Assembly (NCBI GenBank): GCA_000419545.1
Contig: ATTF01000005.1
Location: 1-62,865 of the forward strand
Direction: 5' to 3'
From: Candidatus Pelagibacter ubique HIMB058
GTDB taxonomy: Bacteria; Pseudomonadota; Alphaproteobacteria; Pelagibacterales; Pelagibacteraceae
DNA: 62,865 bases
This document shows positions 81-5,535 of the stretch, one piece after another (position 1 is the first letter of the stretch; each line of letters starts with the position of its first letter). The notes below the pieces were generated by a model. That model was not told where the DNA came from, did not search any database, and saw nothing but the letters and a program-made list of their open reading frames with translations. The position numbers were made by a program, and so were the translations under genes.

Positions 81-130
81 TTAATTAACAAACGAATCAT
101 TAAGATTTGTTTTAAAACAAGGGAGAAAAG

Positions 131-205
131 ATGGCTAAAAGAAGAAAAAAAGCTAAAAAGAAAACTAAAAAGAAAAAAGCTAAAAAAAGAAGAAAAAGAA
201 GATAG
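131..205 (+). CDS. 24-residue Lys/Arg micropeptide, possible nucleic-acid-binding protein
   Basis: This short ORF starts with ATG directly after a strong Shine-Dalgarno (AAGGGAG at 119-125, 5-nt spacing) and ends at TAG. The peptide begins MAKRRKKAKKK and holds 13 lysines, 6 arginines, 3 alanines, one threonine and the initial methionine, so 19 of 24 residues are basic. The gene has its own candidate TTGACA promoter and a hairpin terminator 15 nt after the stop, which makes a complete transcription unit and argues against chance. The composition resembles histone H1 or polyamine-like tails that bind DNA or RNA, and it resembles the N-terminal tail of the CarD protein encoded on the opposite strand just beyond the terminator. 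A function in nucleoid compaction or RNA binding is inference. I recognise no named family. The main alternative is a low-complexity chance ORF in A-rich DNA. Confidence 0.6.
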   Translation: MAKRRKKAKKKTKKKKAKKRRKRR

Positions 206-219
206 TTTTCTCTTTAACT

Positions 220-257
220 AAACGCCCTTTTTAATTTTTTAAAGAGGGCGTTTTTTT
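220..257 (+). terminator. Rho-independent terminator, likely bidirectional
   Basis: AAACGCCCT at 220-228 pairs with AGGGCGTTT at 244-252, with extra A/T pairs towards an AT-rich loop, and is followed by a T run at 251-257. On the minus strand the same stem is followed by a weaker T stretch. It separates the convergent micropeptide gene and the carD-like gene, whose stop codon lies at 256-258, and probably terminates both. Confidence 0.85.
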
Positions 258-939
258 ATTCTGCACTCTCTGAAATATTTGTTCTACCTAAGGCTTTATC
301 CATTTTCTTTTGAACTTCCTCAGGACTTGTTTTTAGTACTGCCTCAAATTCAGATTTTAGCCTTTCATAGGCTTTTTCAAATAATTGTCTTTCAGAGTAA
401 GATTGATCAGCTATGATATCTGTGTTCTTATTTAAATCTTTCACCACTTCGGCCAATTCATAGATTTTACCCGAGTTGATTTTTTGATCATACTCTTGAG
501 CACGTCTACTCCACATTGTTCTCTTTATTTTTGGCTTAGTTTTTAAAATAGAAACACATTTATTGATTTGATTAATAGAAGAAATTGGTCTTAATTTTGA
601 TTGTTGATTTATAGGAACAGTTAAAGTTAATTTTTCTTTTTCAACTAATATTTTATAAAATTGAATATCAATTTCTCCAATTTTTGCTTTTTCAATAGCT
701 GTGATTTTACCTACACCATGCTTTGGATAAACAACAAAATCTTTTAAATTATAAATACGTTTTTCTGTAGGCTGCTTTTTAACTTTTTTAATCTCTGGTT
801 TTTCATCAGGTCCAGGAATGCTATTTTTTTTCTCAATAGGTTTAGCTACAGTTTTAGCAGAATTCTTAATTGCTACTTTTTTTGCTTTTTTAGCTTTTTT
901 AGCTTTTTTTGTTTTTTTTACTTTTTTCTTTTTAGGCAT
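256..939 (-). CDS. carD: CarD family transcriptional regulator with poly-lysine N-terminal tail
   Basis: A 227-residue protein. Residues about 62-220 match the CarD/CdnL family: an RNA-polymerase-interacting Tudor-like domain (the FVVYPKHGVGKI segment near 68-79 is the hallmark) followed by a helical DNA-contacting domain (around MWSRRAQEYDQKINSG, 142-157). CarD/CdnL binds the RNA polymerase beta subunit and stabilises open promoter complexes, classically at rRNA promoters. Residues 1-21 are unusual because 14 of them are lysine, in KKAKKAKKAKK-type repeats, and a linker of about 40 residues follows. Family members are usually about 160-170 residues, so the extra length is this tail. The gene is last in the minus-strand operon helicase/terB-like/fdxA/carD, 3 nt after fdxA. 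The family call is secure; the tail's role in nucleic-acid binding is inferred. Confidence 0.93.
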   Translation of the reverse strand: MPKKKKVKKTKKAKKAKKAKKVAIKNSAKTVAKPIEKKNSIPGPDEKPEIKKVKKQPTEKRIYNLKDFVVYPKHGVGKITAIEKAKIGEIDIQFYKILVEKEKLTLTVPINQQSKLRPISSINQINKCVSILKTKPKIKRTMWSRRAQEYDQKINSGKIYELAEVVKDLNKNTDIIADQSYSERQLFEKAYERLKSEFEAVLKTSPEEVQKKMDKALGRTNISESAE

Positions 940-4296: not shown

Positions 4297-5535
4297 ATGT
4301 CATCAAACATTAAAAAAAGTATTCTAAAATTAAAAGAGTCTTCAACACTTGTTATTAACGAGAAATCAAAAGACTTGATCAATCAAGGAAAAAAAGTTTA
4401 TCAATTTGGATTTGGTCAGTCACCTTTTCCAGTTCCTGAAACAATTGTAGAGTCATTGAAAAATCATGCACATAGAAAAGAATATTTACCTATTCAAGGT
4501 TTAGTGAAATTAAGAGAAGTAATATCAAAGTATTTATTAAAAAAAACTGGAAATAATTATCCAAAAGAAAACATACTAATTACTCCAGGCTCTAAAGAAG
4601 CAATGCTTCTTATGCATATAGCATTTAAGGGAGAAATAATTATTCCAGCCCCAGGTTGGGTATCATATGAACCACAAGCTCAAATTGGTTCAAATAAAGT
4701 TCACTGGTTAGAAACAAAAAGATCAAATAATTGGTTTCCAACAGCTTTAGAGTTAGAAAAAAAGATTAAAAAAGTTGGAAAGAAAAAAAATATTATTTTT
4801 ATTTTGAATTCACCTAATAATCCTTCAGGTTCAGTTTGTAATAATCTAAAAGAAATAGCTAAGGTTGCAAAAAAATATAAACTAATTGTTTTGTCTGATG
4901 AAATTTATACTGATTTAACTTTCAAAGATGAATACAACTCGATTTCAAAATTTTACTCTGAATTTACCTTTATAACAGGAGGATTAAGTAAATGGTGTGG
5001 TGCTGGTGGTTGGAGGTTAGGCTTTCTTGCAGTTCCACCAAAATTAAAGAGCTTTTTAACAAGTTTAAAATCATTAGCCAGCGAGTCTTACTCAACAGTA
5101 AATACCCCAACTCAATATGCTGCGGTAGAAGCTTACGAGGGAAATTATGACGAATATAAAAATAAAGTTAAAGGAATATTAAATGCAGTAGGAAACTACG
5201 TTTATAATAATTTAAAATCTAATAAAGTTTTAATTAAACCTCCCCAAGGAGCTTTTTATTTAATGCCAGAATTTAAAAACACAAAATTTAAAAATTCATC
5301 AAAATTATGTGAAGCCATATTAAATGAAACCGGAGTTGCAATGTTACCTGGTTCAGATTTTGGTTTTAAGCCAAAAAGAATGTTAACTAGGTTAAGTTAT
5401 ACCGACTTTGATGGAAGCAAGTTTTATAATAACGTGAAAGACTATAATTCAATAGATGAAGATATGATTAAAGAATTTGCACCAAGTGTTGTAGAGGGTA
5501 TAACAAGGCTATCAAATTGGGCTAAAAATCTTTAA
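4297..5535 (+). CDS. PLP-dependent class I/II aminotransferase
   Basis: A 412-residue fold-type I aminotransferase. The pyridoxal phosphate lysine is K232 in the GGLSKWCGAGGWRLGF block, NSPNNPSG at 171-178 and SDEIY at 200-204 supply the cofactor-binding Asn, Asp and Tyr, and an Arg in RMLTRLSY near 370 should hold the substrate carboxylate. This is the layout of aspartate/aromatic-type aminotransferases. The exact amino donor cannot be read from the sequence, although aspartate or a related amino acid is the usual annotation. It has its own promoter candidate and lies 64 nt upstream of the TRAP binding protein gene on the same strand. That gene has its own promoter candidate, so a functional link with the transporter is possible but unproven. 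Confidence 0.88.
   Translation: MSSNIKKSILKLKESSTLVINEKSKDLINQGKKVYQFGFGQSPFPVPETIVESLKNHAHRKEYLPIQGLVKLREVISKYLLKKTGNNYPKENILITPGSKEAMLLMHIAFKGEIIIPAPGWVSYEPQAQIGSNKVHWLETKRSNNWFPTALELEKKIKKVGKKKNIIFILNSPNNPSGSVCNNLKEIAKVAKKYKLIVLSDEIYTDLTFKDEYNSISKFYSEFTFITGGLSKWCGAGGWRLGFLAVPPKLKSFLTSLKSLASESYSTVNTPTQYAAVEAYEGNYDEYKNKVKGILNAVGNYVYNNLKSNKVLIKPPQGAFYLMPEFKNTKFKNSSKLCEAILNETGVAMLPGSDFGFKPKRMLTRLSYTDFDGSKFYNNVKDYNSIDEDMIKEFAPSVVEGITRLSNWAKNL

Follow-up and report, generated by a model that had tools for sequence, protein, structure and literature searches.

A Pelagibacterales gene beside carD for a very basic short peptide, probably a reduced histone-H1-like protein, with proposed GcrA/CcrM control

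When considering what a minute and extremely basic bacterial protein might do, the described systems closest to it offer a useful starting point. The Lys/Ala/Pro-repeat, H1-like tail of AlgP binds DNA, and AlgP, with this tail, organises polyphosphate granules (PMC9239181). Some ribosomal peptides are similarly small and basic: bS22 of Borrelia, formerly unannotated, is 61% Lys/Arg, and eL41 is one helix of 24 residues (PMC10618245). As to the control of such genes, the published GcrA consensus is YGAKTCK (PMC7987155). A search of the literature on Pelagibacter for H1-like or small basic proteins found nothing relevant. Here we argue that SAR11 bacteria possess a gene that is to be compared with all of these systems.

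The window, that is, the whole stretch of 62,865 nucleotides analysed here, comes from Candidatus Pelagibacter ubique HIMB058 and starts at a contig end of this SAR11-type genome of 1.1 Mb. On its forward strand, positions 131-205 (ATG at 131, TAG at 203-205) form an open reading frame, kept as coding sequence in relatives, for the 24-residue product MAKRRKKAKKKTKKKKAKKRRKRR; re-reading of the coordinates confirmed the earlier note's count of 19 Lys or Arg among the 24 residues, the remainder including only 3 alanines and no proline. This Lys+Arg content (79%) compares with 52% for the next best of the mini-ORFs in the 62.9 kb window. When positions 61-260 were shuffled with dinucleotides preserved, ORFs of 20 codons or more starting with ATG arose in 6% of 2000 shuffles, and in none did such an ORF reach 70% Lys/Arg. 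The signals that had been described around the ORF are all in place, namely the Shine-Dalgarno sequence GGGAG (121-125, +), 5 nt upstream of the ATG and present in nearly all relatives, the -35-like TTGACA (53-58, +), and an intrinsic terminator (220-257, +) identified by terminator scan and RNA fold. The 15-pair stem-loop of this terminator (220-253) begins 14 nt past the stop codon and is followed by a T run; its CGCCC...GGGCG hairpin is conserved in the alignment of the window's genus. The proposed dedicated transcription unit is supported: this is a monocistronic, conserved small gene with its own promoter element, Shine-Dalgarno sequence and terminator. The terminator extends into the end of the convergent carD (256-939, -; Pfam CarD_C and CarD_TRCF_RID), whose product has a Lys-rich N-terminal tail. 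Since the hairpin between the two genes (window 200-258, -) has its T run solely on the + strand side, carD transcripts may run antisense through the small gene.

Comparison with related sequences confirms that 131-205 is a genuine, overlooked small protein gene, conservation being the deciding evidence. The expectation that relatives would carry a conserved basic ORF near carD, with the same ribosome-binding site and terminator, was borne out: the ORF, Shine-Dalgarno sequence, TTGACA, leader and terminator are present in 29 of 29 same-genus loci aligned around carD. The gene was also found in every one of the 77 carD loci that were readable among 80 named Pelagibacteraceae records, and in the sister-family loci, save one (L055) whose contig has only the end of the gene. 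Altogether, 134 intact copies (126 distinct) of 20-91 aa were collected, none of them frameshifted; a broken ORF with a kept hairpin, which would have spoken against coding, was sought and occurs in no collected locus. The ORF lengths (20-37, 58 and 76-91 aa) change exclusively in frame, and the spacers in the leader (18-29 nt) and between stop and terminator (mostly 15-33 nt) both vary irrespective of threes. Such preservation of the frame in so A-rich a sequence would be hard to obtain other than by coding. In pairs of equal-length copies, the differences at codon positions 1, 2 and 3 number 390, 653 and 1144, and codons with a single change are synonymous in 858 cases vs 378 non-synonymous ones, figures that are descriptive, the pairs being phylogenetically non-independent.

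A strict leader-plus-Shine-Dalgarno pattern, which misses genera with a variant leader, matched 219 of 296 Pelagibacterales genomes, with a single match in each genome among the matches listed, and its reversed control gave no match. Joint loss of the small gene and carD can be rejected: the carD-less genomes point to assembly gaps, because 16 of these 17 are also without fdxA and in the remaining one fdxA is cut by the contig end. Assemblies often break less than a few hundred bases from the locus (G000:C5:1; L012, L019, L026, L029, L031), and these breaks, together with the locus-less genomes without fdxA, make the region around the small gene seem difficult to assemble. Virus-borne copies were likewise discarded as a possibility, since none of the 76 pattern matches in viral contigs has a basic ORF behind it. 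In other alphaproteobacteria, the carD-adjacent place was free of the gene in all of the 37 loci, of 40, with a readable carD, and the leader pattern occurs outside the order at chance level only. As far as these genomes indicate, Pelagibacterales alone have the gene at this place. Judged by sequence inspection only, carD in other alphaproteobacteria often precedes an apparent rpoH, and the gene upstream of the small gene in relatives resembles an AMP-binding long-chain acyl-CoA synthetase (L058 4398-5324, -; L033 4-1182, +).

The length of the product follows a gradient through the order. In the sister family, whose CarD is 46-50% identical, the slot is taken by a Lys/Ala/Pro-repeat protein of 76-91 aa, such as MEELKVIFAKARKKAKKKAAPKKKRKAAKRKPAKKKAAPKKKK...RKKRR, the gene for which shares the convergent place, the TTGACA and the ACGAATC leader and has a strong Shine-Dalgarno sequence. 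These long forms contain AAPKKK/KPAKKK repeats, have a histone-H1-like composition and differ from the short peptide in their N-terminus. Within the family to which the window belongs, deep genera encode forms of 31-58 aa with KPAKK/AAPKK pieces (PAKK motifs), the large Pelagibacter-type genus mostly forms of 22-35 aa, and the window's genus forms of 20-25 aa; the repeats of KPAA and AAPKK type, present in the sister-family orthologs and partly in the deep genera, are absent from the window peptide. Within the family, both termini of the peptide (M[AP]K[KR]RKKA ... KRRRR) show good conservation, its middle differs in length even among members of one genus, and Ala is the sole conserved non-basic residue of the short peptides. 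Because of the gradient from 76-91 through 31-58 to 20-25 aa, we take the window peptide to be, most probably, a shortened ortholog of a Lys/Ala/Pro-repeat protein resembling histone H1, a likeness that rests on synteny, the shared leader and the length gradient, given that low-complexity sequence cannot prove homology. Searches of Pfam, NCBIfam and PDB gave no match for the short or the long forms, the HMMER filters being weak for biased sequence. In the sister family and the deep genera (L051, L052, L053, L054, L057, L064-L066), an upstream CCC, CGC or CTCC can pair with the Shine-Dalgarno sequence (CCC..GGG, CGC..GCG, CTCC..GGAG), which suggests a translational control that would be absent from the window's genus.

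A free Lys/Arg polycation would bind nucleic acid by charge and so might help to condense the nucleoid (or RNA) or form a coat on it. Such a condensing role had been proposed for the peptide before; the long H1-like orthologs of the sister family make it likelier, although we still infer it. The chief rival, which we deem unlikely, is a ribosomal peptide of the bS22/eL41/mS38 type, that is, a very basic short helix lodged in a pocket of the small-subunit rRNA, a kind of product that annotation often misses. The size and charge match those of bS22 and eL41, and the well-conserved ends and strong Shine-Dalgarno sequence would suit such a product; however, Pfam and PDB sequence searches return no match to this type, the short peptides conserve no non-basic residue save Ala, and a fixed rRNA pocket would hardly accept a peptide the middle of which varies within a genus and the sister-family form of which, with another N-terminus, reaches 76-91 aa.

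Less probable still is that the peptide serves some other polyanion, for instance polyphosphate, or tunes CarD or RNA polymerase rather than acting on the nucleoid. The precedent of AlgP and its polyphosphate granules and the fact that, throughout the order, the gene always lies next to carD speak for this possibility, but nothing specific supports it, and the two genes are convergent and have separate signals. For the same reasons, the joint action with CarD on RNA polymerase that the earlier note envisaged found no support: the association amounts to synteny, CarD occurs outside the order without the small gene at this place, and a partnership is unsupported beyond the neighbourhood. At the DNA level, the ORF is similar to the beginning of carD (78% over 76 nt) because both encode Lys-rich stretches, and a shared derivation from a CarD tail is possible. 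The Lys-rich N-terminal extension of CarD, variable in length, occurs throughout SAR11 (window 818-939, -; L051-L057) and in the sister family is up to about 110 aa long; in other alphaproteobacteria (loci L160-L199), many of the CarD proteins have Lys/Ala/Pro-rich tails of H1-like composition.

The region upstream of the ORF contains an element beyond those described earlier, the invariant CGAATC with its GATTYGT partner, situated between the promoter and the ribosome-binding site. TTGAC is present in 112 of 112 unique promoters, 33-36 nt upstream of CGAATC. A consensus scan called no sigma-70 promoter at the small gene because the TTGACA is not accompanied by a TATAAT-like -10; a possible weak -10 is TAATGT (75-80, +), conserved as TAATGT/TAAAGT in the genus alignment. 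If so, transcription would start at about 86-89, and CGAATC, given the usual sigma-70 spacing, would lie a few bases from that point at most. The site itself, CGAATC(A/G) at 93-99 (+), is of the GANTC (CcrM) type and recurs in 136 of 136 leader matches (CGAATCA in 135, CGAATCG in 1). CGAATC is able to pair with GATTYGT as a 5' hairpin; in the window, RNA folding yields the stem-loop AAACGAATC-ATTAA-GATTTGTTT (90-112, +) at the predicted mRNA 5' end, and the left arm is paired in the predicted fold of 101 of 106 leaders. Covariation hardly exceeds that of shuffles, since the leader core does not vary, and was rejected as proof of the hairpin. The GANTC site might owe its invariance to a role as an arm of the RNA hairpin instead of as a site on DNA. 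However, in several deep genera the predicted hairpin is shifted and CGAA unpaired while CGAATC is unchanged, and in the alignment of the window's genus the partner arm has lost its GANTC and the first arm has kept its own, all of which favours recognition of CGAATC itself, as far as folds and alignments can indicate.

The hairpin also bears on the idea, very improbable in our judgement, that the functional product is the transcript, as a small or dual-function RNA, with no more than an incidental ORF. The 5' hairpin and terminator, a fold z-score of -3.8 and the strongly conserved leader would agree with it, but not so the third-position bias, the synonymous excess, the frame kept through changes of length and the constant place of the Shine-Dalgarno sequence. 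A known RNA family was rejected, as all ten Rfam matches are sub-threshold, none reaching its gathering score; the table of GC-rich intergenic regions and the lesser motifs in the published set of structured RNAs of P. ubique do not name the locus. Scarcely credible is a Lys/Arg-codon leader peptide that controls the terminator as an attenuator, notwithstanding its runs of Lys and Arg codons with a terminator close behind: the terminator enters the convergent carD, no same-strand gene follows (the next substantial + strand gene starts at 4297), the gene order is contrary in every locus read, and orthologs are as long as 91 aa.

The reverse complement of CGAATC(A/G), YGATTCG, fits the GcrA consensus, and the same genome encodes GcrA (PF07750, 134 bits in a profile search) and a CcrM-type RAMA-domain protein (PF18755, 55.7 bits, in a 360-codon frame); cell-cycle control of the small gene via GcrA is hence plausible. 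Specifically, the GANTC near the transcription start, presumably methylated by CcrM and read by GcrA, would probably govern transcription of the gene, so that synthesis of the peptide would be linked to the passage of the replication fork. GANTC is found 99 times in the window vs about 169 expected from base composition, several other split palindromes being nearly as scarce. A search of the genome for the promoter layout TTGAC-N33-38-GANTC gave 13 occurrences vs 39 for the control, and no regulon was found. Taken together, we consider it reasonably probable that this Pelagibacterales gene encodes a reduced H1-like ortholog, a nucleic-acid-condensing peptide, the synthesis of which is probably timed by GcrA and CcrM. 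The bolder proposal, that SAR11 has streamlined an H1-like protein to a protamine-like minimum of 20-25 residues, almost all Lys or Arg, and gates its synthesis by CcrM methylation and GcrA when the locus is replicated, is tentative and rather doubtful as a whole.

SAR11 bacteria are among the most numerous bacterial groups in the sea. Genes this short mostly fall below the reporting length of common gene finders, and trypsin fragments such a peptide, which makes it hard to see in ordinary proteomics. The small gene would encode one of the shortest polycations known from a chromosome, its length gradient making visible a path of evolution from a longer H1-like form, and the invariant GANTC site offers a directly testable way into cell-cycle control for a streamlined genome.

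With bS22, eL41 and mS38, the SAR11 peptide shares its tiny size, a Lys/Arg content above 60% and the lack of annotation; unlike them, it has no family match, varies in length and has sister-family orthologs of 76-91 aa, and its gene is not at this locus in other alphaproteobacteria. Like the GcrA/CcrM-controlled promoters of Caulobacter, the SAR11 gene has a GANTC site near its promoter that fits YGAKTCK in a genome encoding both regulators, whereas no regulon with its promoter layout was found in the genome. The short length and nearly pure basic composition recall protamines and protamine-like DNA condensers, but the window peptide is Lys-rich rather than Arg-rich and bacterial, and the comparison is one of composition; the H1-like comparison with chlamydial Hc1/Hc2 is by analogy only. 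The tail of AlgP sits behind an N-terminal helical domain, whereas the window peptide, at 24 aa, differs from the H1-like proteins AlgP and PhaF in having no proline, N-terminal domain, repeats or profile match. Nevertheless, the SAR11 product is likewise a polycation, here free-standing, and its sister-family orthologs share with the C-terminal domains of AlgP and PhaF the Lys/Ala/Pro repeats, the H1-like composition and the varying repeat number.
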